A DNA stretch of 64,000 nt. Source: Anaerolineales bacterium. Its GTDB lineage: Bacteria; Chloroflexota; Anaerolineae; Anaerolineales; Villigracilaceae. How positions within the stretch are numbered: the stretch's first letter is position 1; the number at the start of each line of letters is the position of its first letter. Below the pieces are notes generated by a model. It was given only the letters and a program-made list of their open reading frames with translations, had not been told where the DNA came from and searched no databases. Both the position numbers and the translations under genes were made by a program. Positions 26,154-56,097 of the stretch are shown one piece after another. The stretch lies in assembly GCA_016932715.1 (NCBI GenBank), contig JAFGCG010000158.1, forward strand, positions 1-64,000, read 5' to 3'.

Positions 26154-27440
26154 TTAATGCTGAATTTCCACGCGTCCATTGGGGAACAGGTTGTATTGCT
26201 GTTCGTCAACGATAATGTATACGCGGCCGGCGCTTTCATCGTAGGACCATTCGTGTGGACCAAAGGGACGCAGCCCCTCCGGATAGGATTCGCCTCTGGG
26301 TTCCCAATGCCAGCCTGTTATTGCGCCGCCGTCTCGGGCGACAAAGATAACAGTCTCCGGGGAAAGTCTGAGTCCCTCCGGCGTAACGCGGCTGGCAGGC
26401 GCCGATGTTGGTGTAGTCTCTTGAGCTGCCTGGCAGCCAATGACCCACCAGGTAGGAAAGCTGGCTGCCCCCAGCATTCCAGGCGGCGAACTGGGCGGGT
26501 TATTGATGTACCCGCCGAGGGATTGGAAAATCCTGTGAACTCCTTCTCCGGGCACATGTCGGGCACCAGTGGGGACTGACCAGCGGGCAGGAGTTCCGCG
26601 TGGGACCTCATCGCTGGGCCATGAATCACCCGGATGACGTTCCCGCCAGAGGGCGCGCAGGCTATCCCGACTGGCGGGCTGCGAAGGGGTCAGGGTGCCC
26701 GATTCGAGGTCCCGGATGATCTCATCCAGATGCCCAACGAGCTCCTGAAGCGCGGTGTGTCGCTCAAGGATGAGTCCGGTTTGCGGATCGCTCAACTCCT
26801 CATCGCCCTGCAGTAACATTTCATCCTCGAAATACCAGGTACGGCCCTCCTCAACCCCTCTCTGGATCTCCGCGATCGTTTCGCAGGCCACCCGGATATA
26901 GTCCTGGCGAAGCTGGGATGCACCCGCGCCTGGAGCGGCGGTCTGGCGCTGGATCAAGCCTTGCGGTGTGCCGCCCGGCCGGCTCTGTTGAACGACGTGG
27001 GTCAATTCATGCGCCAGCAGCGAGCGGCTGGCTTGCGAACCGGGCGTATATTGGCTGGCTCCAAAGACGATATGGTTTCCGATGGTAAAGGCGCGCGCCT
27101 CGGCTGTTGCAGCCGATTTCGCCGCCTGGGCATCACTATGAATTCGCACTCGGCTAAAGTCGAAACCAAAACGAGGCTCCATGAAACTTCTGGTCGAGGC
27201 ATCCAGTGGCTGACCTGCCTGACCGAGTGTTTCAGCGATTGTTGGCGGTGTCTTCGTCGCGGTCAAAGAATAAGACGAATCGGGCATGACTTGCAAAGAT
27301 GGCAGTTGTGGTTCCGGCATCCGCATCACCTGGTCTGCGAGACGATCAGCCTCCTGCTCATACCTGTCTCCTCGAGTGCTGAACGTGGGCTTCGGCTGGT
27401 TGGGTTGGTTTGTTTTTGGTGTCGGGGCAAAGGTGTGCAT
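26154..27440 (-). CDS. DUF4157 (eCIS core domain) protein, terminal cargo candidate
   Basis: A 428-residue protein at the far 3' end of the eCIS locus. Residues 24-39 have the DRYEQEADRLADQVM motif, and about 67-152 form the DUF4157 domain (LDASTRSFMEPRFGFDFS, VRIHSD, and HELTHVVQQ with H144, E145, H148). DUF4157 marks proteins associated with or loaded into extracellular contractile injection systems, and often precedes a toxin domain. The C-terminal 270 residues (TWWVIGCQAAQE; PETVIFVARDGGAITGWHW; VYIIVDEQQYNLFPNGRVEIQ) match nothing I recognise and are the putative effector part. The HExxH could also bind zinc. Confidence 0.82.
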   Translation of the reverse strand: MHTFAPTPKTNQPNQPKPTFSTRGDRYEQEADRLADQVMRMPEPQLPSLQVMPDSSYSLTATKTPPTIAETLGQAGQPLDASTRSFMEPRFGFDFSRVRIHSDAQAAKSAATAEARAFTIGNHIVFGASQYTPGSQASRSLLAHELTHVVQQSRPGGTPQGLIQRQTAAPGAGASQLRQDYIRVACETIAEIQRGVEEGRTWYFEDEMLLQGDEELSDPQTGLILERHTALQELVGHLDEIIRDLESGTLTPSQPASRDSLRALWRERHPGDSWPSDEVPRGTPARWSVPTGARHVPGEGVHRIFQSLGGYINNPPSSPPGMLGAASFPTWWVIGCQAAQETTPTSAPASRVTPEGLRLSPETVIFVARDGGAITGWHWEPRGESYPEGLRPFGPHEWSYDESAGRVYIIVDEQQYNLFPNGRVEIQH

Positions 27441-27453
27441 AACTGAAACGAGC

Positions 27454-28134
27454 TCAACTTTTGCGCTGGCTTGTTTTGTCTTTTGTTGTTGATCTGCTTT
27501 TCTCGCTGCTCACCCTACTTTGTTTGCCTAAACGTATGGCAAAATATTCCGATTTCCCTGCATTGAAACGGGCACTCTCGCGCGTCGAATAGAGGGTTTT
27601 CCCGGATGCATCTGACACCATGACATACAATTCGGGAAGGTTTTCGTTTGTTTCGGCAAAATCACGCTCGTGATAGATGGCAGAGAAGTCCCCATTCTCG
27701 TCAGTCTCCGTTTCGCCCAACAGGTCATCGTACTTGCGGTCGCGGTCGAAAACGCGCACGTTCAAACCTGCCGCGGGCTGCCCGTCCACATCGGTCACCG
27801 TGCCGAAAACCATCCATTCATTGGCGCGCGGTTTCGGCCATTTTTTCAGGCGCGTCCTCTGTGTGTCCAGGTGAGTTTTAAGCTCGGACAGTGATTTGGC
27901 CGTGTTCTCCAGCGCGATCACCTGTGGATGCTCCTCGCCCAGTTTTTCGCGAAGCGCTTGCGCGGTTGCCGCCATTCGGTCGGCGCGGCGCTGCTGTAAC
28001 TGGGTGAAGGTTTCCAGCGCGGGCGCGCCGACATCTGCGGTGTGCCGCAGGACATTTTCCAAACTCTGGCGAAGCTGCTCGGCATCGATCTCCGGTCCAG
28101 GAATACCACTAAAAGATCGTTCTTTCTGTTCCAT
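27454..28134 (-). CDS. Coiled-coil protein with carboxypeptidase-regulatory/transthyretin-like domain
   Basis: A 226-residue protein. Residues about 15-100 are helical and likely coiled coil (ALETFTQLQQRRADRMAATA; SLSELKTHLDTQRTRLKKW). Residues about 105-205 form a beta-sandwich of the carboxypeptidase-regulatory/transthyretin type: MVFGTVTDVDGQPAAGLNV, VFDRDRKYDDLLGETETDENGDFS, PELYVMVSDASGK. A basic Ser/Lys-rich tail ends it. It sits between the beta-helix protein and the last DUF4157 protein, so it may be a structural accessory of the baseplate or fibre, or a carrier for the neighbouring cargo (inference). Confidence 0.65.
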   Translation of the reverse strand: MEQKERSFSGIPGPEIDAEQLRQSLENVLRHTADVGAPALETFTQLQQRRADRMAATAQALREKLGEEHPQVIALENTAKSLSELKTHLDTQRTRLKKWPKPRANEWMVFGTVTDVDGQPAAGLNVRVFDRDRKYDDLLGETETDENGDFSAIYHERDFAETNENLPELYVMVSDASGKTLYSTRESARFNAGKSEYFAIRLGKQSRVSSEKSRSTTKDKTSQRKS

Positions 28135-28180: not shown

Positions 28181-31100
28181 TTAGGGTATCAGGCTGAGAT
28201 TATTCGCGTCTGCCTTCTTGGGGGCACTGGCGACGAACAGATGGGTGGCTTCATTGCTGGTGGTCAGGTTCATCGCCATGGCATTGGAAACGTACGAGAC
28301 ATAATTGGAGAAGATTCTCTCGGTCAGGCCATTGCTCGTCGCGCGAACTGTCAGGGCCGAAGAGCCCACGTGTATGAACTTTAGCAGATAAGCCCATAAT
28401 TCTTCCGCCGCTATCTCCCCGGCCTGGTATTTTTGCAGTCCCTCCAACACGTAGGGCGGCACGGCGGCCTGGAACTGGTTGCCGTTCAATGAAATATCAT
28501 CCAGTGAAATGAACAGGACTGAGAAGAAGGCCGCGTCCCAGGCACGTTTGAACCATTGCGCATCGATCTTTCCCAGGCTTGTGACTTCCTCCTGTTGTTC
28601 GGTGTTGTAGGTCACCTGGTTGTTGTGGAAAAGTACGCGCCCATCGGGGAAGTTGGCAAAATATGGATTGACCATTTCAGCTCCTTCCAGATGGATGTTC
28701 GTCTGCCCGCTGGCCATCATTTGCAGCAGCACGATCAATTCCGGGAGCCAGAGAGGCAGCCCCAGATCCAGGATCGCGACGCAACGGCCTTTTTCACCAA
28801 AGTTAAGCGGGACGGTCGGTTGTTTTTGCGATTCGCGCGAGACCAGTGTATTGCCATCGATCGCGACGCTGCCGAGCGCGCTGACCGTCAGCGCCTGCGC
28901 CGCGGGGCAGATCACTTCATTGCCGTGAACGCGCAGGGCCGGATATCCTGTCATTCCCATCCCTTTCAGTCCCGTGTTCGCAGCAAAGGTGCCAGGGGCG
29001 TTGGCGAACACGAAGTGCGCGGCGATCCCGGCCTGATAGGCATCGGGTTCGTCCTTGTCCCCCACGACGCCATTCTCGACGATGACATTTCCGTCAACGA
29101 CGATGTCACTGCCATCGAGAACGAAAACACCGCAGGCAGGCGCCTTGCCCTGTCCGTTGGCAGCGATGAAGTTATCGGTGATCTGCAGGCTGAATACTGC
29201 CATCAACGCGATCCCGCCGCCCACGCGCGTCCTGTCGCTCAGGAGGACGTCTGGCTGATTGCAGCAGCTAATGATCTGGTTGTCGCTGATCGTCAGGAAT
29301 TCCACGTCGCTCATCTGGGCCAGGTCTTTGAGTACCGTCTGGGTGACAATGCCGCTGCCGGTCATCTGGGCGATCAGATTGAGTCTGATCGTTGTCAATC
29401 GAATGCCTGCCAGGGCGCTCCTGGCCTTGACTTCGGCCGAGGCAGAACCCTCCTTGGATACCCATGTCGCCGAATCGGCGGCGATGTTATCTGCACCCAG
29501 GCGAATGCCCGGCCCGGCGCCCTGCAGGATCATGTTGTCTTCAATCTGGACGATGAGCGATGGCGGCACGATCTGGATCCCGCCGCCGCGGATGCGGTTG
29601 CGGATGATGGAGATATCCCGCGCGCTTGCCATGACCGCGGGCAGGCCGACCAGATCATTGTCCCGGATCGCGACCTGTTCGCAGTTCTTGATCAGGATCA
29701 ACAGACCAGGTGTGCCCAGTTTTTGTTTCGCCGCTCCCGTCAGGTTGGGAGATGTTGGGGTCAGGATGTTCGTCAGCACATTATTTTCGATCACGATCGC
29801 TTCCGTTTCCGAGAACACGAGCGCGCCATCCTGTGTGGAAGCCTCGAGCCAGAGACTATCAAGTTGAATGCCATTTCCATTGGTAAAGACGAAGGCTGGT
29901 TTTCCCTGCGGGGCGATCACGCGTGTCTGACGGCCGCACCCGCTGATGGTCAGCCCCAGCGCGCCGTTGACCGTGATCGTAGTGTTGAGTTTATGTTCAC
30001 CCGCCAGCAGGCAGATCCGCCATTCCATCGCGTCGGCAGGGCGGGCTGCGAGCGCAGACTCGATGTCGGGATGGTCGCCGCCCTGCCCGACCGAGACGGA
30101 ACAACAACATTGACCTCCAACGGGTAACTCCGTCAGCGGCGGGAATTTCTCACGGCAGTCATCCACATCCACGATCGTTTCGCCATCGAAGGTGATGACC
30201 GCAAGCGTGCAGTAATGATGCTGGATGCCGAACGGCAGGAGCGCGGCAGGGTCGCTGCCATCCTTGGGCCATTCGATATCACCAAATTGACCTGGCACCG
30301 TGCGGGCCGGGATCAGCCAGTAATCGCCTGTGTGGAGGGTGTCGATCTCAAACTTGATCTCGATGCCGTCTTCGATCTTGATGTAACCGTCATTGGTGGC
30401 CGGCACCGTGACGGCGATCTCGCCGTCCGAGTCCCAGCGCCGGACTTTGGGATGCCCATTGAGGTCGTACCCGCTGACGGGGAGGGAGAGCGTCAGAATG
30501 TTATCGGGATCGATCTTCGTGATTTGCGCCAGAGTCCCGGGCAGTCCGGCCAGTTCGGTGGCGTCATCCAGAACTTCCACCCAATCGTTTTCGTGCAGAC
30601 CCAGCACATCATCGCGCCCGAGGCTGGTCGTGCGGATCTTGTCGTTCGCGCCGTCCACGGCGAACTCAGCGATCGCCACCACCACCGAACCGTTATCCCG
30701 CGACCATTTGAAGGTCGGGCCGCCCGAGGCATTGCTGTCCCGATGGATCTCCACGCGGTACAACTGGTTCTCGAGACGCTTGTAACCCGCGCCCGGAGGC
30801 ACCACACATGGATCGTCGGGCTGGTCCTCGGGATGCGTGCGTGCGCGCAACCGGCCTTTGCTTGCCTCCGGCCAGGGAGAAAGATCATCGGCACAACTGA
30901 TCTGATCGCCCTGCTCACCGACCTTTGCCAGCACCGCCTGCCAGACGGTTTGCATGCGCGTGGTCGTATCGGGGCCGCCCAGCGCCACTTCGCGAATGGA
31001 CGGATCTTCGAGGGCGGTAATGTGCCTTTGCCAGACATCCAGATAAAGCCAATAGATACCTTCTTCTTCCATCAGCCCCTGGCCGGGCGGCAGGACAAAA

Positions 31101-31456
31101 GGCTGCTGGCTGAATGGCAGGGTGTTGTCGTTCTCGACCTGAATGCCATCCACGTAGGCGCGGCCTTTTGTGAGATAAAAATCTCCGCCTGGCAATGTGT
31201 CAAAGCCGTGATCCGTCAGCCAGTCCTGTTCCTCCTGGGAGAGCGTGGTGAGGTCGGTCACGACACCAAAGGCAGCGTCATGGATCGGTACACCGCACTT
31301 GCCAATCACATCAATGGTTTCCGTCTCGATGCGCCGCAGGAGGATGTCCAGGTTTTCGTTCCAATCCGCGTCCAGCTGCACGCGTCCCTGCTGCATCCGC
31401 ACCCCGCTGTAATGTTTGCGGGGATCGAACGTCGATCGTGAAAAATCACCTTTCAT
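28181..31456 (-). CDS. DUF6519 protein with right-handed beta-helix (fibre/receptor-binding candidate)
   Basis: A 1091-residue protein. The N-terminus MKGDFSRSTFDPRKHYSGV followed by MQQGRVQLDADWNE is the hallmark of DUF6519 proteins of eCIS-type loci. A domain to about residue 450 includes WSRDNGSVVVAIAEF. From about 455 onward, repeated units such as GLTISGCGRQTRV, IVIENNVLTNILT, VAIRDNDLVGLPAV and LQITDNFIAANGQ are the coils of a parallel beta-helix (NosD/pectate-lyase-like). Such helices often form trimeric fibres or glycan-binding tailspikes, so this may bind the target surface. The last 200 residues are less regular. Confidence 0.75.
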   Translation of the reverse strand: MKGDFSRSTFDPRKHYSGVRMQQGRVQLDADWNENLDILLRRIETETIDVIGKCGVPIHDAAFGVVTDLTTLSQEEQDWLTDHGFDTLPGGDFYLTKGRAYVDGIQVENDNTLPFSQQPFVLPPGQGLMEEEGIYWLYLDVWQRHITALEDPSIREVALGGPDTTTRMQTVWQAVLAKVGEQGDQISCADDLSPWPEASKGRLRARTHPEDQPDDPCVVPPGAGYKRLENQLYRVEIHRDSNASGGPTFKWSRDNGSVVVAIAEFAVDGANDKIRTTSLGRDDVLGLHENDWVEVLDDATELAGLPGTLAQITKIDPDNILTLSLPVSGYDLNGHPKVRRWDSDGEIAVTVPATNDGYIKIEDGIEIKFEIDTLHTGDYWLIPARTVPGQFGDIEWPKDGSDPAALLPFGIQHHYCTLAVITFDGETIVDVDDCREKFPPLTELPVGGQCCCSVSVGQGGDHPDIESALAARPADAMEWRICLLAGEHKLNTTITVNGALGLTISGCGRQTRVIAPQGKPAFVFTNGNGIQLDSLWLEASTQDGALVFSETEAIVIENNVLTNILTPTSPNLTGAAKQKLGTPGLLILIKNCEQVAIRDNDLVGLPAVMASARDISIIRNRIRGGGIQIVPPSLIVQIEDNMILQGAGPGIRLGADNIAADSATWVSKEGSASAEVKARSALAGIRLTTIRLNLIAQMTGSGIVTQTVLKDLAQMSDVEFLTISDNQIISCCNQPDVLLSDRTRVGGGIALMAVFSLQITDNFIAANGQGKAPACGVFVLDGSDIVVDGNVIVENGVVGDKDEPDAYQAGIAAHFVFANAPGTFAANTGLKGMGMTGYPALRVHGNEVICPAAQALTVSALGSVAIDGNTLVSRESQKQPTVPLNFGEKGRCVAILDLGLPLWLPELIVLLQMMASGQTNIHLEGAEMVNPYFANFPDGRVLFHNNQVTYNTEQQEEVTSLGKIDAQWFKRAWDAAFFSVLFISLDDISLNGNQFQAAVPPYVLEGLQKYQAGEIAAEELWAYLLKFIHVGSSALTVRATSNGLTERIFSNYVSYVSNAMAMNLTTSNEATHLFVASAPKKADANNLSLIP

Positions 31457-31534: not shown

Positions 31535-33676
31535 TTATGTAACAAAAATAATTCCTGCTTCCAAACCAAAACGTAAATATTCATCCAAGGCAATCCTTAA
31601 ATTTGCTTCGCGCTGCGGCCCTTGTAACAGACTGAACACACCCATCTCCGAGCCGTCTTCCGCTCCGGTCCTGATCTCGTGCGCGCAGGCCGAGGAGAGT
31701 TGAGCATAGGCAGGCTGGCCATAGCGTTTGCTTGTGAACTGCGGACGCACGCGCAGGATGATCTCCTCGCGCTCTGCGTTCGACAGTGGGGCGGGATCGA
31801 GTTCCTTCTCGCGGTCCGAGATCGCCAGGTCGGGCTGGCAAAGATAGCGACGCGGCGTCTGCGATCCTTGCGGGACATAACTGAAACGTACGCAGCCTGT
31901 CTGCCGCCGCTCCGCTGTGACGGTGTGGACAAAGATCACTTCGGATGCCAGGGTCAGTTCCTTGACGAATACTTCTCCAAAGATCGTGACGCGCTCGAGC
32001 GTCGTGACCGGACCCGCGAGGGTCGCGCCCGCATCGGCCGCGATCGTCGCCCGCGCCGGATCATTCGCGTCCTTAGCGAGGGGCGCGTCCACAATGCTGT
32101 CGCTGACCGTCAGAGCCCGGCATTCTGTCGGCAGTTCCAGCGGACCAAGGATGCTGCGTGAGATCGAGAGGCTTGTGTCTGTCACATCACTCCCGCTGAC
32201 AACGATGCTTGCCTCGTCAGCATGTTCGGGATAACCATCTTCATCCAATGTGCGGCCAGGGATCAACGTACAATCGCTGATCGTTAGATCGATCTTTCCG
32301 CTGAGCTCAAGGCTGCCCTCGATCAATAACCCGTTCAGGGTGAATGCGGCAGTCTCTTCGGCGCTGGTCGCGGCGGAGGTAACTGTCAGCGGAGCGGCAT
32401 TGACCAGCGTGGGTCGCTCGCCGTTCTCGCAGTCGATCACCAGCATTCCGTTCTTGGGGAGGTTGATCGTAAGGTTCGCGTCGTAGGTGGCACTGTCATA
32501 CACGCGAATGATGGCAGGTGGTTTTTGCTGTGTATCCCAATCAGCCAGCGCGGCGGAAAGAGTGGCATAGGTCTTTCCCACCCCGACCTGGAATTCCACA
32601 ATATTCGGCGTGACCTCTGCCATTCGTTCGCGGCGATCGTAGGGCCCGCCGCCGATGTCCGCGCTGAAGCCATAGTTGTACGATACGGTCAGCTCCTGTG
32701 TGGGCTCCTCACCAACTGCAAATGTGATGCGACCGCGCTCCACATCCACCGCGACCTTGCCTGCAGGCGGGCGATCCCAGGCGCTTAGATTCTTGCACAT
32801 CACATCCTTCGGGGGCACAGGCGTTCCATCTTTGACGATCTGCAGGCTGCGCTCGGGCCCATAATAGCGACTGTTCTCCGGCGGGTTGGGGTCGGAGGCA
32901 AATTTGTCCACATAATGTTTCAGATCGAAGTGGAAATCCAGCGGGCGGAGCGGCGCCGGGACCAATTGCTCGTCAGGCGATCCGGATCCCGCGGGCGCGT
33001 TGAAGAGCGGGGCGGGATTTCCAATCGTGCTAAAGTGGTAGCCATAGGTATGCGGCGCCAGTGCCTTGCGCGGCGTCACAGCCAGGAGCGGATAATTTTG
33101 CAGCCGCCACAGGAACAAACCGATGTTGGGAATGTTATGTTTCCCGCGGCGGTTGTTGATATGCCGAATGTCCACCGTGTGCGGCAGTTTATCGAAGGGC
33201 GTGTCCAACAGGTCCAGTGCATTGACATCGCGCAGATCGGGCATGGTATTGAATAAACGGCGATGGTTGAGATACTGAGTGGTTTGAAGGATTTGAAAAA
33301 ATTCAACAGCCTGGGCGTGCCAACCCGTTACATCTTTGGCAAGGAGTTCGAGGACATGCGCCGTCCCTTTACGGCGGCGATAAAAGAGCGTATTGGCAAC
33401 ATAAGCACGCTGACTGAAGGCGGTGGTTTTGATCGCGTTGAGTCCGCGCACAGCCAGCAGGTCGCCGATGTACGGCACGACCCACTCATCGCTGGTCTCG
33501 ATGAACCAGTTTTCATAGAGCCCTGTGATATCGGCTTCGACCGATGCGAGTTCATCATTGATGATCGAGAGCAGCGCCCGCAGAGGTTCACCCTGTTCGG
33601 CATCTCGCAGGCGATAGACCACAGGCAGCAGATTGTAGAGTCGGTCAGAAGCCCGGAGCGAAGACAAAGGGGTCAT
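31535..33676 (-). CDS. Phage tail-like protein (tail protein I-like N-terminus, beta-helix middle)
   Basis: A 713-residue protein. The N-terminus SDRLYNLLPVVYRLRDAEQGEPLRALL, then DEWVVPYIGDLLAVRG, matches phage tail proteins of the gpI/baseplate-wedge group found at the end of eCIS baseplate modules. Residues about 350-610 contain a periodic beta-rich region (VGVGKTYATLSAALADW, IDCENGERPTLVNAA, LTISDCTLIPGRTL, LTVSDSIVDA) that resembles a short parallel beta-helix. It may therefore join the baseplate rim to a fibre. Its start overlaps the previous J-like gene by 4 bp. Confidence 0.75.
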   Translation of the reverse strand: MTPLSSLRASDRLYNLLPVVYRLRDAEQGEPLRALLSIINDELASVEADITGLYENWFIETSDEWVVPYIGDLLAVRGLNAIKTTAFSQRAYVANTLFYRRRKGTAHVLELLAKDVTGWHAQAVEFFQILQTTQYLNHRRLFNTMPDLRDVNALDLLDTPFDKLPHTVDIRHINNRRGKHNIPNIGLFLWRLQNYPLLAVTPRKALAPHTYGYHFSTIGNPAPLFNAPAGSGSPDEQLVPAPLRPLDFHFDLKHYVDKFASDPNPPENSRYYGPERSLQIVKDGTPVPPKDVMCKNLSAWDRPPAGKVAVDVERGRITFAVGEEPTQELTVSYNYGFSADIGGGPYDRRERMAEVTPNIVEFQVGVGKTYATLSAALADWDTQQKPPAIIRVYDSATYDANLTINLPKNGMLVIDCENGERPTLVNAAPLTVTSAATSAEETAAFTLNGLLIEGSLELSGKIDLTISDCTLIPGRTLDEDGYPEHADEASIVVSGSDVTDTSLSISRSILGPLELPTECRALTVSDSIVDAPLAKDANDPARATIAADAGATLAGPVTTLERVTIFGEVFVKELTLASEVIFVHTVTAERRQTGCVRFSYVPQGSQTPRRYLCQPDLAISDREKELDPAPLSNAEREEIILRVRPQFTSKRYGQPAYAQLSSACAHEIRTGAEDGSEMGVFSLLQGPQREANLRIALDEYLRFGLEAGIIFVT

Positions 33677-39587: not shown

Positions 39588-39631
39588 TGTTCACTCTCTA
39601 ACTCACCTGTACAAAAAGGTGCCAATCTAAA

Positions 39632-39740
39632 CCGCGAAGGCACAAAGGGCGCGAAGATTTTTCCTCCTTCGCGAAGAAAGAAACTTCTTTGGGTTCTCCC
39701 CGGCACCGAACCACCGGGGCGGTGTCGCGTCTTCGCGGTG
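39632..39740. repeat. Palindromic repeat inside the eCIS operon with CCCCGGCACC insert
   Basis: The outer arms CCGCGAAGG and CTTCGCGG surround GGGCGCGAAG/CTTCGCGAAG. The right half carries TCTCCCCGGCACC...CCGGGGCGGTG, the same kind of insert as at 26093-26120. It fills the 180-bp gap between the PAAR-like and spike genes. Confidence 0.7.
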
Positions 39741-45485: not shown

Positions 45486-45495
45486 TCTCCAGACC

Positions 45496-47871: not shown

Positions 47872-48191
47872 GAACGACTGCCTTTATTTATCGAATTCAG
47901 TCCGCCATGGACCGCCTGTGCAATTTCCATGCCGACCAAAGCTGGCTTTGCCTTCGGTGAAACTGTAATTTGATCGGTACGGAGTACACGGATATGACCT
48001 TCCTTGATGACAGATGAATCGAGATTCACCTCTCCAAGCAAGAGCTCTAACTCGTGCGAGAACGCGTCGCCGATGTCATACCGGTTGGAAGCGAAGAGCC
48101 CGTGCAGGATCAATTCATCGATCTGCACTTCGACGTTGGCGAACTTGCTTTGCATCTTCTGAACATTGGCTGCGCGTCGCGCCCTTCTCAT
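47868..48191 (-). CDS. Small eCIS-locus protein of unknown function
   Basis: A 107-residue protein with a basic N-terminus (MRRARRAANVQKM) and a central segment VQIDELILHGLFASNRYDIG followed by FSHELELLLGE. The pattern IDEL-LHG-F...RY-IGDA is one I associate with small genes next to DUF4157 genes, so a chaperone or loading partner is possible (inference). It overlaps the ATPase gene and the DUF4157-OmpA gene by 4 bp on each side, implying coupled synthesis with both. Confidence 0.65.
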   Translation of the reverse strand: MRRARRAANVQKMQSKFANVEVQIDELILHGLFASNRYDIGDAFSHELELLLGEVNLDSSVIKEGHIRVLRTDQITVSPKAKPALVGMEIAQAVHGGLNSINKGSRS

Positions 48192-50158
48192 GCCCAGCCT
48201 CCGATCTCTGATTCAGTCAGGGGTTTTTCCAGCTTGGCAAATTCGACGCGCGCCCCGCGCAGCAGATGATCCATGCGCACGGGTTGGTTGGAATCAGCAG
48301 CCAGGAACGCCGCGTGCAATGCGATGTTGCGGATGTTCCCTCCGGTAACGTTCAACTTTGCCAGACGGTAGACATCCAGGCCCTCTGTTGGTGTCTGAGA
48401 TGGAAAGGCGCGCTTCCAGATCTCGCTGCGCTGATTGATGTCTGGGAAAGGAAATTGAATTACGAAACGAATGCGGCGCAGGAAAGCCTGGTCGAGCGCT
48501 TCCTTCATGTTGGTCGTCAGGATTGCCAGGCCGCGATATTCTTCCATCCGCTGCAGGAGATAACTGACCTCGATGTTGGCATAACGGTCGTGGCTGTCCT
48601 TGACCTCGCTGCGTTTGCCGAACAAGGCATCGGCTTCATCGAACAGCAGAACGGCGCTGCTCTCCTCCGCTGCATCGAAGACGCGCCGCAGGTTTTTCTC
48701 GGTCTCGCCGATGTACTTGCTGATCACCTGACTCAGGTCGATGCGGTAGAGTTCCAGTCCAAGCTCATTCGCCAGGACTTCTGCGGACATGGTTTTGCCC
48801 GTACCGCTCACACCGGCAAACAGCGCGCTGATACCGAGTCCGCGCGCGCTCTTGCTGGCGAAACCCCAGGTTTCATAGACCTTCAAGCGCTGGCGGATTT
48901 GGCGCGCAATATCATGCAGCGATTGGAGTTGGGTCTCCGGAAGCACCAGATCCTCCCAGCGAGCCATGGGGCGGATGTGCTGTGCCAGCTCACCCAGGCG
49001 CGGATGAGCCTGATTACTGCAGGCTTCCCACAGGGCACGCCCAAGCTCGTTCGGATCAGCCGTTTGTTTTTGAAGCGCCTCCGCCGCGATGGAATAAATG
49101 GTGCGGGAGTCCAGGTTGAAATGCGAGACGAGTGCTTCCAGGCGGCCGTTGAGCAGCGCGGCGGCCGGACCGAGCGCGTTCTGCCAAAGTTGCTGCTGCT
49201 CCAGTGTGGTTGGCTTGTGAACGTCAAAACTAATCACATGTTTCAGCCCGATCAATCTGCGCTCGCGGCTGGAAACGATCAGTGGATAATCCGAATTCTC
49301 GATCCAGCGTTGGATGGCAGCATTCTGGGCAGGCTCGTTGTCAAGCTCATTGCAGTCCAGCAGCAGCGCGTTCGAATTCAACGCACTCTCCCGCTGCCAG
49401 AGTCTGCGAAGCGACTCGCTCTCGAATGGATTGGAGGGAACGGCATGGGCAGGCAACACATATAAATTCATGCCAAGCCTGGCACAGCTATTGACCGCAG
49501 TGTTGTGTTTACTGGATATATCGCTGCCACACAACTGAATAATCGGTAGTTGTTCGCGTCCCGGGTGCTCTGACCAGATCTTTACAATTCGCTGAGCCAG
49601 GGCAGCATGTGAATCAGGTAACTCGCCATCACTGACAACCGGTCGAACGTACCCTGCCAGACGTTCATCGAGATAGGATGTCCCGGTGAGATAGTGCAGA
49701 ATACGTTCATCGATGCGCAGGGGAATCTGTGAGGCGATGTTGCCCGATCCGACTTCGATCAGCCGCCAGTAGCGCAGCGGGCGGACCTGGGAAAGGGCGC
49801 TCCAGTGCACATCCGACAACACAGATAATGCCAGGCTGAACGTGGGATACGGTTTCGACGGATCATTTTGTATAGCCGCACAAAGCATTGAAAAGCGAGA
49901 GTCAAGCTCGGCACCTGCGCACAACAGCAGGATATCCCTCTCGAACGGCGTGAGCTTGAATACATTGCACAGGGAGATCAGAGCCGGCAAGGTAGATTCA
50001 AAAGCCTCGCTCGGTTCCAGCGCTGTTCCACTTGCAGATTGGCGCGCTGGACTATCTCCGTGCAGACGCTGCTCCAAACGCGCACGGATGCGCTCCAGTT
50101 CGGCGGAGAGATAACGCTGATTCGTTTCGAGCCAGTTAAGAGAAACAGAAATGTCCAT
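48188..50158 (-). CDS. eCIS-associated AAA+ ATPase
   Basis: A 656-residue AAA+ ATPase. The N-terminal region starts with SLNWLETNQRYLSAELERIR and forms a winged-helix and degenerate ATPase-like part (to about 380). The AAA core has Walker A GVSGTGKT (449-456), Walker B VLLFDEADALFG (about 505-516), a sensor-1-like AILTTNMKEALDQAFLRRI and the second-region RRIRFVIQFPFPD. ATPases of this kind are nearly universal in eCIS loci (Afp15/Pvc15) and are thought to help assembly or cargo loading. The gene overlaps the Pvc16-like gene by 1 bp. Confidence 0.9.
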   Translation of the reverse strand: MDISVSLNWLETNQRYLSAELERIRARLEQRLHGDSPARQSASGTALEPSEAFESTLPALISLCNVFKLTPFERDILLLCAGAELDSRFSMLCAAIQNDPSKPYPTFSLALSVLSDVHWSALSQVRPLRYWRLIEVGSGNIASQIPLRIDERILHYLTGTSYLDERLAGYVRPVVSDGELPDSHAALAQRIVKIWSEHPGREQLPIIQLCGSDISSKHNTAVNSCARLGMNLYVLPAHAVPSNPFESESLRRLWQRESALNSNALLLDCNELDNEPAQNAAIQRWIENSDYPLIVSSRERRLIGLKHVISFDVHKPTTLEQQQLWQNALGPAAALLNGRLEALVSHFNLDSRTIYSIAAEALQKQTADPNELGRALWEACSNQAHPRLGELAQHIRPMARWEDLVLPETQLQSLHDIARQIRQRLKVYETWGFASKSARGLGISALFAGVSGTGKTMSAEVLANELGLELYRIDLSQVISKYIGETEKNLRRVFDAAEESSAVLLFDEADALFGKRSEVKDSHDRYANIEVSYLLQRMEEYRGLAILTTNMKEALDQAFLRRIRFVIQFPFPDINQRSEIWKRAFPSQTPTEGLDVYRLAKLNVTGGNIRNIALHAAFLAADSNQPVRMDHLLRGARVEFAKLEKPLTESEIGGWA

Positions 50159-51465
50159 CAGATCGTAACCAAAGGTCCGGCGTACTTCGGGGCATCGGGG
50201 TCGGGACCGGGGTCCAGCAGGCTTTCGGCGCCATCTACCTGGACGCGCAGCAGGTAATCTCCGGCGGCTACACCCTTAACAGGTGCATCCACGTGACTCA
50301 GAGTATCGGGCGGCGTCTCGGGCAGTTTGATTTCGAAACGATAAGCTCGGGGAGTGCGATCGAGAGGTGGGTTGTATTCATTCAGCAAAAGCACAAGTTT
50401 CTGGTTTACACCGATCTTGGGAACCAGGTCGATCCCGATGGTGGCATCGTGATACGTGACGCCGTCGATCACGGTGGACGAGTCGATCGTCACTGAGCCC
50501 ACAATCACCGCCGGCCGCAGGACGAATGCAGCCACATTGGATTCAAATCCCTGATGCGGGGTGGCAGGCGTTCCCATGTTGATCCGGTGAATGACCTGCA
50601 CACCTGATACGCCCGCTCGCAAAGCGTCAACCAGAAAAGGTGGGGCCGCGAGCGGAACTTTGATCTGCACGTCGGAGACCTCATCGGGCGTGACCTCCAG
50701 GCCGTTCAGGCTCACGCGCGTGACCTCGCCGCGCAATCCCTTGCCGGCCAACACCAGGATGTCGCCTGCCACGATCGGTTGATCGGGAAGGATCGGGCCC
50801 GTCGACGTCTTCTGGGAAAGGGTCTGCTCGATCACTGGCTGATAGATGGGACGCACATAAAGGTTACGGCTTCGTACGGGCAGGGCCGGACCGGGTGTCT
50901 CTTTGCCATCGATGAAGAGCACGGAAGCCTGCAGTGCGATCGAGATGCTGTACGTAGTTTGAAAGAACACAGACCACAGTTTGGAAAATTCTTCCAGCCC
51001 CAGCGACAGCATCGAGAACTTGATCGACTCCACTTCGGTATCGAGATTGTTATCAGCGAGCACACCGAAGGTGGCGTCCTTGATCATGGCCTTCGTCAGG
51101 ATCGGCTCGGCCGCCAGCCGGCGCAGGAGCGCGCCCAGCACCCGTTGCGGTTCGAACTGAATATCATCGCCATAGCATGTCACCAGGAAATACAGGTCGT
51201 AAGGGGAGCGTGTGGCCTTCACGAGTGAACCGTCGCTGCGGCGGTTGGGGACATCTGTGTTGCGCCAGTGCGTGTTGGGTGTGATCTGATACGGGTACAG
51301 ACCGACAAAGACATTGGGATGACCTGTCGGGTGGCCGCCTGTCAGATTGGAAGACGGCCGCAGGACCATCGCTTCCGCGCCCGCGAAACCCGCGTCGCGC
51401 GCGCCCGCCTGCAGATGCTGGCGCAATGCCTCGGTCACAGTGGCGATCGTCAGAGAATTGCTCAT
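50158..51465 (-). CDS. Pvc16-like (DUF4255) tube/sheath cap protein
   Basis: A 435-residue protein. The N-terminal DUF4255/Pvc16_N domain, about 1-190, has NSLTIATVTEALRQHLQ, PNVFVGLYPYQITPNTHWRN and SPYDLYFLVTCYGDD. In Afp and PVC this protein caps the distal end and stops tube and sheath growth. The remaining 240 residues are immunoglobulin-like or IPT-type beta domains (GDILVLAGKGLRGEVTRVSL, TIDSSTVIDGVTYHDATIGI, DYLLRVQVDGAESLLDPGP), an extension longer than the simple cap. Confidence 0.87.
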   Translation of the reverse strand: MSNSLTIATVTEALRQHLQAGARDAGFAGAEAMVLRPSSNLTGGHPTGHPNVFVGLYPYQITPNTHWRNTDVPNRRSDGSLVKATRSPYDLYFLVTCYGDDIQFEPQRVLGALLRRLAAEPILTKAMIKDATFGVLADNNLDTEVESIKFSMLSLGLEEFSKLWSVFFQTTYSISIALQASVLFIDGKETPGPALPVRSRNLYVRPIYQPVIEQTLSQKTSTGPILPDQPIVAGDILVLAGKGLRGEVTRVSLNGLEVTPDEVSDVQIKVPLAAPPFLVDALRAGVSGVQVIHRINMGTPATPHQGFESNVAAFVLRPAVIVGSVTIDSSTVIDGVTYHDATIGIDLVPKIGVNQKLVLLLNEYNPPLDRTPRAYRFEIKLPETPPDTLSHVDAPVKGVAAGDYLLRVQVDGAESLLDPGPDPDAPKYAGPLVTI

Positions 51466-52190
51466 CGCTTGCCCTCGTTTCGACGCAGCAGGTATTCGTC
51501 CAGCGTCATCTTTGGCCGCTGAGGCGTGGAAGCACGCGCAGGCGGAGAAGGCTGCGTCACTGCACGCACCTCGATCCGCCCGATGCTGATACGCACGGTC
51601 GGAGATCTATCCTCGAATGGAAATATTTTTGCATCCATGTTGTTTTCAGTTTGAGGGATCGAGTGAGGCGATTCCAGCTTCGGGATAACAGGGACAAGGC
51701 GCGCCGCGCTTTCCTGAACTGATTCCGATTTGTCGTTCTCTCTGGCCGATTGAGTCAGCGCTTCGCTGCGCGGACCGTCAGCCTGCTTCCGTTCATCAGG
51801 CGCGGCCTCGGCCCTGACGGTTTGCACCGCGCTGACGTGCTCCTCGCTCTGCATCTTGACCGTCGTGCGCGCTGCTTCGTCTGGCACAAAGGGCAGGATG
51901 GTCTGAGCCGCCGCGCGATATCTTTCAGGTGCTTCACTGATTGGTTCGGCTTGAGGAGTTGCAGCGTGCACGTTTTCAGGCGCGCTGTATCTCTCCAGCC
52001 GCGAACGACGGACAGCAGGTGAAAGCGGAACTGCTTCAAGCGTCTCTTCATGTGTGTTGATACCCGGTGACTCAGACAGGACTGGTTCACCGCCCGCAGG
52101 CGCTTCGAACAAGGACGGCAACTTTGGCCGCAGCACGTCAGGAGCAGGAGCAAAACTGCGCGCCACCAGGTTGGTCAGGAAATCGCTCAT
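51462..52190 (-). CDS. Disordered eCIS-locus protein with conserved-looking C-terminal motif
   Basis: A 242-residue, Ala/Pro/Glu/Ser-rich protein that looks mostly disordered. The N-terminus MSDFLTNLVARSF is amphipathic. The only ordered-looking part is the C-terminal 60 residues: DRSPTVRISIGRIEVRAV and RPKMTLDEYLLRR. I recall similar tails in proteins of other eCIS loci, but cannot confirm this here. It could be a scaffold, a minimal tape measure or an adaptor. It overlaps the cap gene and the hub-chaperone-like gene by 4 bp each. Confidence 0.6.
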   Translation of the reverse strand: MSDFLTNLVARSFAPAPDVLRPKLPSLFEAPAGGEPVLSESPGINTHEETLEAVPLSPAVRRSRLERYSAPENVHAATPQAEPISEAPERYRAAAQTILPFVPDEAARTTVKMQSEEHVSAVQTVRAEAAPDERKQADGPRSEALTQSARENDKSESVQESAARLVPVIPKLESPHSIPQTENNMDAKIFPFEDRSPTVRISIGRIEVRAVTQPSPPARASTPQRPKMTLDEYLLRRNEGKR

Positions 52191-52945
52191 GTGCCAACCA
52201 TTTCCAAATAACGCTGGCGCCGCCAGGCGCTCATCGCCAGGATATCGGCTTCGCGCCAGCCGTAGGCTGAAGCCAGGACATGGACTTCGCGCATCAATCG
52301 TCCGGCCCAGGCCTGGATCTCATCCCAGAAGTACGAGACGATATCGAATACGATCCGCCAGGTGTGCCCGCAGGCCGGACAGATTGCCAGCAGGGTCAGA
52401 TCGGCAAGCGGATCAACCTGTCCCATCTTTTCAACAATGGCATTCGCGACTTCTGCCGGCAGGGAATTGACAGGGATCGTCTCTCTATCTTTTTTGACGG
52501 AAGTTAAACAGGCTTCAAGAAGCCCTCGCTGAGCCTGGCTCATATCTGTTTGCATAATGAGAGCCCTCAGGTCAGCGCTGGTGGGAAGGCGGAAGGACAA
52601 TTCGTAGTCGTCGAGCTTGAATGATGATTCGGTGGGGATCGGCTTCATCGTCTCGAAATCAAGCGACGGGGCAGCCTGACCGCGCAGGTCATGGGCGTCA
52701 AATGCCAGTTCGAGGCGATCGCCGCAGGCCGGGCAGTTCGCCAGTCCCTTCAACTGCGCGCCAAAGGTCAACTCGCGCAAATACAACAAACAGGCATCGC
52801 GCTGCCCGATCGTCAATTGCCACAGATCCGCAGCTGGGACGTGCGGCGAGGCAAACCCCAGGATTGCCAGGGCCTGTTCAATAGGCGTTTTACCCCTGCC
52901 ATGTTCCCAGATCTGGAGGAGATCGGAAGCCGAGAGCGCGCGCAT
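52187..52945 (-). CDS. T4-like baseplate hub assembly/chaperone-like protein with zinc knuckles
   Basis: A 252-residue protein located between the tube gene and the cap module, where eCIS and phage loci encode proteins related to T4 baseplate hub components. It has LLQIWEHGRGKTPIEQALAIL at the start. Two CPxCG knuckles, C71/C74 (NCPACGDRLELAF) and C189/C192 (ICPACGHTWRIVF), could form one zinc ribbon. A C-terminal helix YGWREADILAMSAWRRQRYL is typical of the group. The zinc site suggests a folding or assembly role. Confidence 0.7.
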   Translation of the reverse strand: MRALSASDLLQIWEHGRGKTPIEQALAILGFASPHVPAADLWQLTIGQRDACLLYLRELTFGAQLKGLANCPACGDRLELAFDAHDLRGQAAPSLDFETMKPIPTESSFKLDDYELSFRLPTSADLRALIMQTDMSQAQRGLLEACLTSVKKDRETIPVNSLPAEVANAIVEKMGQVDPLADLTLLAICPACGHTWRIVFDIVSYFWDEIQAWAGRLMREVHVLASAYGWREADILAMSAWRRQRYLEMVGT

Positions 52946-52951: not shown

Positions 52952-53479
<528 letters not shown>

Positions 53480-53489: not shown

Positions 53490-55790
53490 TTATGCCTGGA
53501 TCTGGCCAGCGATCTGCTGGATCTGGATAATGACGAACTCGGCGGGTTTGAGCGGGGCGAAGCCCACCAGGATGTTGACTACGCCGCGATTGATGTCATC
53601 CTGCGTGGTGGTTTCTTTGTCGCATTTGACAAAGTATGCATCGCGCGGTGTGCTGCCCTGGAACGCGCCCTGGCGGAAGAGGGTGTGCATGAACGCGCCG
53701 AGATTCAAGCGGATCTGAGACCAGAGAGGTTCGTCGTTGGGTTCGAACACCACCCATTGCGTGCCTCGGAAGAGGCTCTCTTCAATGTAGAGCGCCAGCC
53801 TGCGGACAGGAATATATTTCCATTCGGAGCCCTGCTGGTCATTGCCTTCCAGAGTGCGCGCACCCCAGGCAACGCGTCCATAGACCGGGAATTGCCTGAG
53901 ACAATTGATCCCCAGTTTATTGAGCGCGCCGCATTCGGGGTCGGTCAGGTTGTAGGCGAGGCCTTGCACGTTGGCGAGTGTGGCTTCGGTCCCAGCCGGA
54001 GCCTTCCAGACGCCGCGATTGCTGTCGGTGCGGGCGTACAAACCTGCCAGGATGCCCGAGGGTGGAAAGGCGTTCAGGCGGAAGTTATCCAGCGGATCGG
54101 GCGCCATCACGAAGGGGAAATACAGCGCCGAATTTTTATCGGGTGTGAGCTGGTTGGTGTTCCAATCCTGGATCTGCGCGAGGGAATTCCGACTGCGCGG
54201 TGGGTCGACGATGTAAAAGGCACGGCGTGCCCGGCAATACGCCTGGGCTGTGCTGATCACACTCAGGGCAGACGTATCGTCCATGTCTGCCACCAGGGGG
54301 ATGCAGAGCAGGTTGAAGATGTCCACGTCTTCGAGCGCATAAATGCCTTTTTTGTCATCGAGGTTACCGATGATCTCGGTCGCGCTGGGCGGTGTGCCGT
54401 TGTCACCTGCCGCGGCGTCGACCTGCGCGGCGAGGTTCACACCTGTCCCCAGCGAATAGCGCTGGACATTTTCGAACGCGCTGGCTCCGTCGATGCCGAT
54501 ATCCGCTGCAAGACTGCCTGCGCCCACATCGGTGAATGTGACCGTCGCGTCAGTGGTCTCAGTGCCGGAGACGACGCGCAAGCTGTTTCCATTCACCTGG
54601 ACGATGGCCTGGGAAAGGGCCGGATTGGTGGATGAAATTGCCCGGATCTTTTCCTGGACTTTGGCCGCCAGCGCGCTCAACGAGCTGACTGCGTCCGTCA
54701 GCTTGAACTTGCCTGTGCCAATATTGGTCGCGCCATCGACGACGTCAACCTGGACTTCCTCGGTTAAGCTGAGCGTTGTCAGATCCAGGTCGGAAAGATC
54801 CGCGCCCAGGGTGCCGGTCACGGCCGGTCGCAGGCCTGCCGCACCGCCGCCTTCGCGCCCGCGGTTGCCGAGACCCAGTTTCAACAGTTTCGCTGCATCG
54901 TTTTTGGAGGCATTGAACACCCGCACAGACGACTGCTCACGTGCGGCCGTCGATCCTGTATTCGAGGTCAGCGTGAGCACGGTGCCCACGGAGGAAACCG
55001 TCACCGGGACTCCCGCGGCGTTCAGCTGAGCCTGGAATTTTGTTACCAGGTCAGCCAGACTGGTTGCAGGCGAACCAGAAGGGAACAAAGCGACTTCAAA
55101 CGGTCCGCTGCCATCGACGACCACTGATACAAAACGGGTTGTCTCCGCGAGCGGGTATACCACCCCGGCTGTGTCGCTCTGACTCCACCCCTGGCTGAGT
55201 GCGCTCAGCGTAGGGGTATCCACAGCCGCGTGTCTGACGGCGCTGAGCAACTGTGACCCGGAGTTGATCACATTCGGGGCATACTGCGCGGACTTCGAGT
55301 CCATGCTCAGGTTTTGGAAGACTTCCTTGCGGCCAATCTCCAATTCGGTGCCCTTCGGAACGTATTCGGTGACGGTCAGGTTGAAAGTGCTGTCCGGGTT
55401 GGTGGTGGCGTAATCCACATCGACTTTGAGATAGTTGCCCCAGTTTCCCTCGCTGCTGGCAGCCAGGGTCAGCATCCTTTTTCCATCGCTGGCGCGGGAC
55501 AATGTAATTGCGGACCTCGTCGCGCCGCTGGCTTCGCGTACCACCCAGGCTTCAGACCCGCCGTTCATGAAGAACATCTGAACGGCGTAACCAAGTTCAC
55601 TGTCCCTGGAAAGCCCGCCGAAGTTGCGTGTGTAATCACCAAAGTTGAAAATGTGGACAGGTTTGTCAACAGGTCCCTTGGGTGTGAAACCAATGAACGC
55701 CGTTACCGAAGTGCTGACTCCGGTGATCGTGCGTACACCGCTGGGGATCTCCTCGATGTAGACGCCAGGATAAGTGGGTGTGACAGGCAT
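53490..55790 (-). CDS. Contractile tail sheath protein
   Basis: A 766-residue sheath protein. The N-terminus PVTPTYPGVYIEEIPSGVRTI with VSTSVTAFIGFTPKGPVDKP, and the C-terminal part (SLAQIQDWNTNQLTPDKN; WKAPAGTEATLANVQGL; INCLRQFPVYGRVAWGARTL; WVVFEPNDEPLWSQIRLNL) are classic sheath signatures. It is much longer than Afp sheaths (about 350-450), because residues about 170-480 form an inserted beta-rich region (VVVDGSGPFEVALFPSG, DLTTLSLTEEVQVDVVDG) that probably decorates the outside. Only one sheath gene is present. Confidence 0.95.
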   Translation of the reverse strand: MPVTPTYPGVYIEEIPSGVRTITGVSTSVTAFIGFTPKGPVDKPVHIFNFGDYTRNFGGLSRDSELGYAVQMFFMNGGSEAWVVREASGATRSAITLSRASDGKRMLTLAASSEGNWGNYLKVDVDYATTNPDSTFNLTVTEYVPKGTELEIGRKEVFQNLSMDSKSAQYAPNVINSGSQLLSAVRHAAVDTPTLSALSQGWSQSDTAGVVYPLAETTRFVSVVVDGSGPFEVALFPSGSPATSLADLVTKFQAQLNAAGVPVTVSSVGTVLTLTSNTGSTAAREQSSVRVFNASKNDAAKLLKLGLGNRGREGGGAAGLRPAVTGTLGADLSDLDLTTLSLTEEVQVDVVDGATNIGTGKFKLTDAVSSLSALAAKVQEKIRAISSTNPALSQAIVQVNGNSLRVVSGTETTDATVTFTDVGAGSLAADIGIDGASAFENVQRYSLGTGVNLAAQVDAAAGDNGTPPSATEIIGNLDDKKGIYALEDVDIFNLLCIPLVADMDDTSALSVISTAQAYCRARRAFYIVDPPRSRNSLAQIQDWNTNQLTPDKNSALYFPFVMAPDPLDNFRLNAFPPSGILAGLYARTDSNRGVWKAPAGTEATLANVQGLAYNLTDPECGALNKLGINCLRQFPVYGRVAWGARTLEGNDQQGSEWKYIPVRRLALYIEESLFRGTQWVVFEPNDEPLWSQIRLNLGAFMHTLFRQGAFQGSTPRDAYFVKCDKETTTQDDINRGVVNILVGFAPLKPAEFVIIQIQQIAGQIQA

Positions 55791-55842
55791 AACAACTCTC
55801 CTTTATTTGATGGTTACCAGTTGGATGAACTGAAAATAAACC

Positions 55843-56097
55843 TTACTCTTTCAAGTAAGACTGAATGAACGCGGCAATGATTTTTAAGTCGGTGAAATGT
55901 TGATGTTCGCTGCTCGGGATATGCATGATCCGGCCGCGCCAGATTGCAGGGCGCGCTTTTTCGTCTGATTGCTCCAGCCACATTCGAATGACAAAAGAAT
56001 GAATCGTGAATTTGCTGTTGATGCCATCCGAGGGGTCAGATGCCATTTCCGACAAAGTAAACTCCTCTACCTCTGAAGTAAGAGTCAATGGTTCCAT
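55843..56097 (-). CDS. Small protein at the head of the eCIS operon
   Basis: An 84-residue protein, the first gene after the eCIS promoter region. The sequence FVIRMWLEQSDEKARPAIWRG, RIMHIPSSEHQHFTDLKII, AAFIQSYLKE resembles short proteins whose typical form is WRGxITHVPSGE...F.DL; their function is unknown to me. No membrane segment or signal peptide is visible. It lies 52 bp upstream of the sheath gene, a wider gap than most others in the operon. Confidence 0.6.
   Translation of the reverse strand: MEPLTLTSEVEEFTLSEMASDPSDGINSKFTIHSFVIRMWLEQSDEKARPAIWRGRIMHIPSSEHQHFTDLKIIAAFIQSYLKE

Follow-up and report, generated by a model that had tools for sequence, protein, structure and literature searches.

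A complete contractile injection locus in an Anaerolineales bacterium, with a hub cassette that seems to have a history of its own

We analysed a window of 64,000 nucleotides from an Anaerolineales bacterium of the phylum Chloroflexota (assembly GCA_016932715.1, contig JAFGCG010000158.1, positions 1 to 64,000). The window is contig C21 of the host assembly, which is 4.94 Mb in 195 contigs and 94.67% complete. Positions 26154-56097 (~30 kb) hold an array of 23 genes, all on the minus strand, which by its gene content is a complete contractile injection system (CIS) and neither a phage nor a type VI secretion system (T6SS). Our reading, to which we give a probability of about 0.85, is that this is a complete and probably functional CIS of a widespread lineage that bears DUF6519 proteins, and that its hub cassette (the CIS_tube, LysM-like, gpD-like and gp5-type genes) has been horizontally exchanged, so that the particle would be a mosaic. 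A preliminary description of the window had already recognised a complete one-strand injection locus with gene overlaps of 1-8 bp; we agree, as the core structural genes match profiles and 9 of the 22 gene junctions overlap by 1-8 bp. The features are listed here from the upstream end (aa, amino acids).

56216..57148, minus strand: BTAD (SARP-type) transcriptional regulator (PF03704, E 9e-22)
56166..56194, minus strand: intrinsic-terminator-like hairpin, 13 pairs and then a T run (pattern match only)
55843..56097, minus strand: 84-aa protein, first gene of the array (no Pfam or PHROG match)
53490..55790, minus strand: contractile sheath, 766 aa (PF04984, PF17482)
52952..53479, minus strand: inner tube (PF06841, E 6e-47; PDB 7b5h, E 3e-17)
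52187..52945, minus strand: gp26-like baseplate/hub chaperone (PF12322, E 4e-12)
51462..52190, minus strand: 242-aa Pro/Glu/Ala-rich protein between the gp26 and cap genes (composition, synteny)
50158..51465, minus strand: cap/terminator of the Afp16/Pvc16 family (PF14065, E 6e-34)
48188..50158, minus strand: AAA+ ATPase in the Afp15/Pvc15 position (PF00004, E 3e-27; PF22977, E 8e-22)
47868..48191, minus strand: 107-aa protein of unassigned role (no Pfam, NCBIfam or PHROG match)
45496..47871, minus strand: cargo candidate 1, eCIS_core with an OmpA-like domain and Pro-rich stretches (PF13699, E 4e-31; PF00691, E 9e-15; HELAH)
44439..45530, minus strand: cargo candidate 2, eCIS_core, start codon uncertain (PF13699, E 2e-34; HELTH)
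42499..44547, minus strand: cargo candidate 3, eCIS_core, start codon uncertain (PF13699, E 3e-35; HELTH)
41803..42462, minus strand: hub cassette, CIS_tube protein (PF19266, E 3e-7)
41444..41806, minus strand: hub cassette, LysM-like protein (PHROG baseplate wedge/hub, weak at E ~1e-4; no Pfam match; homologues in 41 of 41 loci)
40324..41451, minus strand: hub cassette, gpD/gp27-like hub protein (NCBIfam VgrG_rel, E 0.006, below cut-off; no Pfam match; homologues in 38 of 41 loci)
39768..40313, minus strand: hub cassette, gp5-type OB-fold spike (PF04717, E 3e-20)
39588..39767, minus strand: dispersed-repeat stretch of 180 bp between the spike and tip genes (23 matches in the host genome)
39267..39587, minus strand: PAAR-like spike tip (below-cut-off matches to DUF4280, E 2e-4, and to PAAR, E 0.058; 40 of 41 loci have a homologue)
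38903..39259, minus strand: gp25 baseplate wedge (PF04965, E 8e-20)
36375..38897, minus strand: baseplate J, Afp11-like (TIGR02243, 309 bits against a cut-off of 156)
33673..36378, minus strand: baseplate J, Afp12-like (TIGR02243, 240 bits against a cut-off of 156)
31535..33676, minus strand: large tail-I-like baseplate protein (TIGR02242, E 3e-4, below cut-off; homologues in 10 of 10 loci)
28181..31456, minus strand: DUF6519 (eBAP5 class) fibre/baseplate-anchoring protein with a C-terminal beta-helix (PF20129, 245.5 bits against 22.4; PF13229, 31.8 against 25.9)
27454..28134, minus strand: transthyretin/CarboxypepD_reg-like protein (PF01060, E 2e-5, 25.8 bits against 24.9)
26154..27440, minus strand: cargo candidate 4, eCIS_core, at the 3' end of the array (PF13699, E 2e-33; HELTH)

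Searches of the locus with Pfam and NCBIfam profiles matched Phage_sheath_1 and 1C, Phage_T4_gp19, T4_baseplate, Pvc16_N, AAA with a WHD domain, CIS_tube, Phage_base_V, GPW_gp25, TIGR02243 (twice), DUF6519 with Beta_helix, and eCIS_core (DUF4157; four times), while the TIGR02242 (tail-I) match was weak and below the cut-off. By published criteria (PMC8213781; what we attribute to published articles refers to the portions of them drawn on here) the locus counts as one of the type of extracellular contractile injection systems (eCIS): sheath, tube, CIS_tube, gp5, gp25, a PAAR-like protein, two J proteins, ATPase, Pvc16 cap and DUF6519 all lie inside 30 kb, as judged with Pfam and NCBIfam profiles rather than that study's own and with a PAAR-like score below the cut-off. 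Most of the parts named in the preliminary description were borne out by profiles, including the four DUF4157 proteins, each of which matches PF13699 and has an HExxH motif; the LysM-like and gpD-like proteins have no Pfam match and are placed by synteny and by their homologues in relatives. The PAAR-like gene is not the open frame 39256-39594 but 39267-39587, in a different frame. The 84-, 107- and 242-aa proteins of unassigned role and the transthyretin-like gene were missing from that earlier gene list.

The sheath profile has a single match in the whole host genome, inside the locus, and all four of the genome's eCIS_core matches are inside it as well; among 14 control genomes, the sheath was matched in 3 and eCIS_core in 0. 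Just one gp19-type tube was found among the locus genes scanned. Baseplate_J has three matches in the host genome, two of them in the locus; the third is on contig C161 (31670-31954), within a 499-aa frame. IcmF (PF06761) had 0 matches in the host genome (an E. coli control was positive), so the trans-envelope component of a T6SS (TssM/IcmF) was not detected. Likewise, no phage head, terminase, lysis or integrase family was found among the 16 flanking genes scanned with Pfam (the BTAD gene apart; several other flanking reading frames were outside the scan). Of these 16, 14 match metabolic, transport or regulatory families and 2 have no match. Here too the preliminary description, which saw no phage head or T6SS genes and named terminase, portal or capsid genes in the adjoining sequence as counter-evidence, was right as far as the 16 genes go. 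There is no tape-measure family among the Pfam matches of the locus genes, although a remote homology search was not made. Between 25600 and 57400, Rfam gave no match at its gathering score, and no sigma-70 promoter pattern was found in 55700-57400.

The nearest sheaths in the named collection come from a Chloroflexi metagenome-assembled genome (MAG; L002) and an Anaerolineales MAG (L003). L002 and G021 are one locus, G463 shares the sheath position of L003, and both G021 and G463 are in the window's family. Sheath matches are present in 5 of 61 genomes (the host, which is counted, and 60 relatives), in 0 of 17 other genomes of the host genus, and in 84 of 400 genomes drawn from the phylum, possibly with phages among them; thus CIS have a patchy distribution among the host's near relatives and are common in the wider phylum. 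In tblastn searches with the window's proteins, all 10 relatives examined, from Bacteria and Archaea, share the order sheath, tube, gp26, cap, ATPase, cargo, CIS_tube, LysM, gpD, gp5, PAAR, gp25, J, J, tail-I, DUF6519 (spread over two contigs in L003). The 242-aa and 107-aa genes are absent from some of the 10, and the other genes from sheath to DUF6519 are kept. Furthermore, DUF6519 was present in 19 of 19 CIS genomes searched, both Calidithermus genomes included. Together these results imply that a single sheath, a single tube and a beta-helix protein are not unusual in this lineage. The locus had been described as unusual and simplified for having one sheath and one tube, which we reject because the same single-copy places are seen in 10 of 10 relatives. 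Its beta-helix fibre protein had also been thought unusual, but DUF6519 with beta-helix ends is a published class, eBAP5 (PMC12923769), and the window protein, with a DUF6519 domain and a C-terminal beta-helix, belongs to it. (The DUF6519 gene of the closest relative, G021/L002 (L117), has one in-frame TAG stop; our sheath and DUF6519 alignments left out L023, L031 and the L117 row.)

Three of the window's four eCIS_core genes form a cargo island between the ATPase and the hub genes. We compared 41 loci, 34 of which have eCIS_core genes between the ATPase and CIS_tube and 6 of which have none there; in L003, eCIS_core genes lie on either side of a contig break within this interval. The island holds 71 of the 74 eCIS_core genes whose position could be determined (54 of 57, and 17 of 17 in five loci), but most loci were retrieved only as far as the J gene, which would hide any cargo gene in the 3'-terminal position of the window's fourth copy. 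Cargo sets vary among close kin while the structural genes stay conserved: OmpA-bearing cargo is found in the window and G021/L002, M35-peptidase-bearing cargo in L002 and L003, and L003 also holds a 61% homologue of the window's 363-aa cargo (candidate 2). The island leaves no room for a separate immunity gene on the same strand, as its genes overlap or are at most 36 bp apart if the longest frames are correct (starts are uncertain). The OmpA-type domain of candidate 1 could let that cargo hold the cell wall.

In phages, the tape-measure gene lies just ahead of the hub genes (background that is partly covered in PMC11126660), and we infer that the cargo genes may have taken over this slot. 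Halogeometricum has an island of the same kind, named the "interspacing region", and its cluster is described as having no plug, tape-measure or crown homologues in the portions of PMC11566945 used here. The DUF4157 proteins Cgo1/2 fill the AlgoCIS tube, and growth inhibition by Cgo1 is independent of its HExxH motif (PMC8894135); we therefore do not assume that the window's cargo is catalytic. The tape-measure-related cargo of Streptomyces davawensis, Tme, co-elutes with the tip, spike and tube initiator (PMC11126660), and another DUF4157 protein, Sle2, has been tested against the tube initiator, hub and spike (PMC13277306, from which we take no outcome).

The evidence for hub exchange comes from trees and distance correlations of the window and 36 relatives. 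(Four divergent loci, G477, G500, G466 and G473, were left out, as was G072, which has no J gene in the retrieved piece.) The window and L003 are 58% identical in cap and ATPase and 71% identical in PAAR, gp25 and J, versus 44% in the hub (CIS_tube through gp5). If the 36 relatives are ranked by identity to the window, L003 is 2nd for the cap, 3rd for the ATPase, 6th for PAAR and gp25, and 2nd for J, while it is 16th for CIS_tube, 19th for LysM, 23rd for gpD and 28th for gp5. In the trees of both flanking blocks, the window, G021 and L003 form a clade (Shimodaira-Hasegawa-like approximate likelihood ratio test, SH-aLRT, 99-100). In the hub tree, L003 instead belongs to a separate clade of 10 rows (100/99) with Methanoperedens, another archaeon, Methanothrix, a Bacteroidetes MAG and cyanobacteria, and its hub is 59% identical to that of Methanoperedens versus 44% to the window's. 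The hub data reject a grouping of the window, G021 and L003 (log-likelihood difference 421; approximately unbiased test, p = 1.3e-4); this p value is optimistic, because the trio was picked after the identities had been seen, but the effect is still large. So the hub cassette seems to have a different history from its neighbours in these alignments. It would have entered the window's lineage, or been replaced in L003, by horizontal exchange, and the particle would then be a mosaic.

To extend the comparison beyond the trio, we called the 17-row hub-tree clade that contains the window type A and the other type B. A does not hold together in either flanking block (unity rejected at p = 4e-49 and 5e-8, with 10 and 4 changes between A and B). 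Gene by gene, the numbers of A/B changes are 10, 12, 11, 9 and 10 from sheath to ATPase, 2, 1, 1 and 2 in the hub, and 3, 7 and 5 for PAAR, gp25 and J; under shuffled labels the means are 12.3-12.8 and the minima 6-9. The informative part is that the upstream genes barely follow the hub type and that the signal fades downstream. Correlations of pairwise distances do not depend on these labels (657 of 666 pairs for gene pairs; for blocks and cargo, 586 of 595 pairs from 35 genomes with eCIS_core and 83 domains, with 9 near-kin pairs dropped). Within blocks, they are 0.49-0.68 for the hub, 0.49 for cap and ATPase, and 0.57 for gp25 and J, versus 0.09 across the cargo island and 0.16 at the junction of PAAR and gp25. 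Between blocks, cap plus ATPase correlates with PAAR plus gp25 plus J (0.42) across the hub that lies between them, and the hub correlates with cap plus ATPase at 0.11 and with PAAR plus gp25 plus J at 0.34. The hub is thus a coherent unit, but the cargo island is neither the sole nor the weakest joint.

Several observations weigh against hub exchange as we describe it, or against parts of it. Types A and B were defined on the hub tree itself, which makes low counts in the hub expected and the counts for each gene partly circular. No gene has distances that follow those of the sheath (largest correlation 0.16), and the tube goes with CIS_tube (0.41) and gpD (0.27) more than with its own neighbours. 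Of 500 subsamples, 499 had their weakest joint between adjacent genes at tube/gp26 or sheath/tube; the best single split fell at PAAR/gp25 in 460 of them and at the cargo island in 36. The link between cargo domains and hub similarity is weak (partial correlation 0.207; p = 0.023 by permutation), and cargo identity averages 54.3% within versus 54.8% between hub types; beyond that partial correlation, strict co-inheritance of cargo and hub is unsupported. Trees of Afp8 and Afp11 have been reported to be similar (PMC8213781), and their agreement may still hold at the scale of all eCIS. As for the particle, the identities assigned to the tail-I, PAAR, LysM and gpD genes draw on weak or absent profile scores together with synteny, and the CIS is known here from its genes alone, from which its mode of action cannot be read.

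Homologues of the BTAD protein lie upstream of the sheath in G021/L002 (58% identity) and L003 (49%), with a more distant one in G074 (29%). BTAD is a published "shell" domain of eCIS (PMC8213781), and the protein probably regulates the locus. The terminator-like hairpin sits between the BTAD gene and the array, and such pattern sites number 2 versus a mean of 1.5 in shuffled sequence. Among 10 loci, homologues of the 84-aa protein are found upstream of the sheath in G021/L002 (36%) and L003 (35-36%) only, and the transthyretin-like gene is likewise confined to these two. A dispersed repeat with 23 matches in the host genome (itself included, the others partial) lies where the hub cassette ends on its right side, which may be coincidence; G021/L002 has ~12 bp between its gp5 and PAAR matches. 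The gp26-like protein also has a zinc-ribbon match (E 6e-4, below cut-off), and the last ~45 residues of the 242-aa protein are conserved across several phyla. In 6 of 10 loci a homologue of the 107-aa protein comes immediately after the ATPase, and blastp found homologues in 19 of 41, which disfavours a role as an immunity protein; the protein is possibly an undescribed loading factor.

The sheath's best PDB matches (phmmer) are 9ezm (E 9e-79) and 8bky (E 9e-78), followed by Pvc and Afp sheaths. Compared with shorter sheaths, it has an insertion of ~270 aa (residues ~185-455), which has counterparts in 10 of 16 aligned rows, including archaeal, verrucomicrobial and planctomycete sheaths. The insertion seems to consist of two copies of a ~100-aa domain: hhalign aligned its halves with a probability of 94.6% (E 6.7e-8, which counts for a single pair only). 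BLAST of half against half gave nothing convincing among the matches listed (best E 0.064), and no known Pfam domain was a credible match to the insertion. For the tube, the best PDB matches are 7b5h and 7adz, which we take to be the entries of the thylakoid-anchored CIS (tCIS) and AlgoCIS, respectively. The best PDB match of the J protein is 9gtp, and we liken the CIS_tube protein to the N-terminal part of Afp7.

By analogy with published relatives, we infer how such a particle might load, dock, contract and inject. Tube and sheath would polymerise from a baseplate of hub, gp25, two J proteins and tail-I up to the Pvc16-type cap. The AAA+ ATPase would help to load the eCIS_core proteins (ATPase-assisted loading is supported in the PVC system; PMC11495950), and this cargo would dock inside the tube at its hub/spike end. 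A trigger acting through the tail-I and DUF6519 proteins would make the sheath contract and drive spike and cargo through a membrane.

Could hidden paralogy, faulty binning or rapid evolution in L003 have produced the hub result as an artefact? The L003 locus is indeed split over two MAG contigs, with cap and ATPase on one and the hub on the other. However, its hub, PAAR, gp25, J, second J, tail-I and DUF6519 genes are all on one contig (L134), so the discordance between hub and wedge is independent of binning. Moreover, the L003 hub is not merely fast, given its well-supported place and its greater identity to Methanoperedens, and the DUF6519 matches of that genome fall within one gene. We consider an artefact quite unlikely. 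It is still harder to believe that the locus is a prophage, a prophage remnant or an R-type tailocin: sheath, tube and baseplate share ancestry with phage tails, and the tube and J proteins match PHROG tail families, but the Pvc16 cap, AAA+ ATPase and eCIS_core proteins, the single layout conserved across phyla, and the flanking genes scanned all speak against it.

For a CIS, whether particles are released, stay in the cytoplasm or fire from a membrane is a separate question, and predicting this from sequence alone can be unreliable (PMC12998442). If the system is extracellular, particles would exit by lysis and DUF6519 would serve as a receptor-binding fibre for foreign cells. DUF6519 is a published fibre-anchoring domain that is frequently followed by C-terminal beta-helix pectin-lyase folds (PMC12923769), both of which the window protein has, and the cargo varies (OmpA-bearing, M35-peptidase-bearing and other) over conserved structural genes, as effectors would. 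Yet DUF6519 does not discriminate, and we rejected it as proof of an extracellular particle, because it is found in both Calidithermus genomes searched and the particles of C. chliarophilus are reported to lie unattached in the cytoplasm (PMC12998442). Also, no target is known, and no immunity gene fits the cargo island, which matters little if the targets are not kin. We regard release as plausible, at somewhat less than an even chance. A cytoplasmic CIS, whose particles would stay inside and fire on the cell's own membrane under stress to bring about regulated cell death, would explain why immunity genes are not apparent. In its favour, 8bky, among the closest solved sheaths, is Cis2 of S. 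coelicolor (PMC11566945), 9gtp is an entry with the same sheath chain, and the Chloroflexota/Deinococcota lineage is described as intracellular and probably cytoplasmic in action (PMC12998442). But the tube matches 7b5h and 7adz better than 8bl4, and the window, G021 and L003 group with a Bacteroidetes MAG and Methanothrix (cap and ATPase) or with Verrucomicrobia (PAAR, gp25 and J), not specifically with Calidithermus, in block trees that contained Calidithermus and no Roseiflexus or Streptomyces (the CIS with which subtype IId groups in a tree of sheath and Afp11). This makes a cytoplasmic system a live possibility with the odds leaning against it. Finally, firing might be membrane-anchored and T6SS-like, as in the haloarchaeal CIS: the best sheath match, 9ezm, is a code that occurs in PMC11566945, and the haloarchaeal cluster resembles the window in its mid-cluster cargo region and, in the portions of that article used here, its lack of plug, tape-measure and crown homologues. 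Against this, no anchor gene was recognised in the locus and IcmF was missing, although no search was made for the haloarchaeal anchor gene; we think this improbable.

Returning to the CIS with a probably exchanged hub cassette, the locus itself is one more well-formed CIS in the Chloroflexota, and its hub is the more important result. Fibres with DUF6519, cargo with DUF4157 and regulators with BTAD are already known; what seems new is the separate history of the hub cassette. We found no description of hub exchange as a cassette among the papers listed by our searches of the open literature (subscription papers and preprints were outside the search). A broader proposal, which we hold tentatively and at a little under even odds, is that the hub-spike block (CIS_tube, LysM, gpD and gp5) acts as a swappable cassette whose movement between bacteria and archaea is not tied to the cap/ATPase genes or the wedge. 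The cargo would lie at its upstream seam, in the phage tape-measure slot, a CIS would gain a payload by in-place replacement of hub and cargo, and Afp8 trees would misreport the history of whole systems. Published eCIS phylogenies were built on Afp8 and Afp11 joined (PMC8213781) or on Afp8 alone, which was stated to be proven reliable for this purpose (PMC12923769). Because gpD/gp5 (the Afp8 equivalent) and the Afp11 equivalent disagree for the window and L003, subtype trees and inferences about fibre classes deserve a block-by-block test. The hub result also makes it testable whether eCIS_core cargoes recognise a particular hub allele.

Among known systems, the Photorhabdus virulence cassettes (PVC) and the antifeeding prophage (Afp) have a Pvc16-family cap and an ATPase like the window's, and they also share two J proteins, gp25 and a PAAR tip. 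Unlike the window, with one of each, they have sheath paralogues (Afp2/3/4, Pvc2/3/4) and tube paralogues (Afp1/5, Pvc1/5), so the locus falls outside the multi-paralogue Afp/PVC lineage. AlgoCIS, which we group here with the thylakoid-anchored CIS (PMC8894136), also carries DUF4157 cargo, namely two proteins, but it has a plug, cap adaptor and cage (PMC8894135), none of which we identified in the window. Streptomyces CIS (8bky, 9gtp) have a similar sheath and J protein, and DUF4157 cargo is tied there to the tube initiator and spike (Tme, PMC11126660; Sle1/2, PMC13277306); in contrast to the very long tape-measure-related Tme, the largest reading frame of its cluster (PMC11126660), the window has three shorter cargo genes ahead of the hub. 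The CIS of Halogeometricum borinquense, an archaeal T6SS, has two structural subclusters split by a DUF4157 region, much as in the window, and no plug, tape-measure or crown homologue was found there according to the portions of PMC11566945 used here. It differs in its toxin-immunity pairs and membrane-bound particles, whereas the window, read from genes, has no obvious immunity genes or known anchor. The CIS of Roseiflexus (PMC12998442) comes from the same phylum as our host. Calidithermus chliarophilus has the same gene order through DUF6519, but the window's sheath is ~260 aa longer because of its insertion, and none of three block trees places C. chliarophilus as the window's sister.

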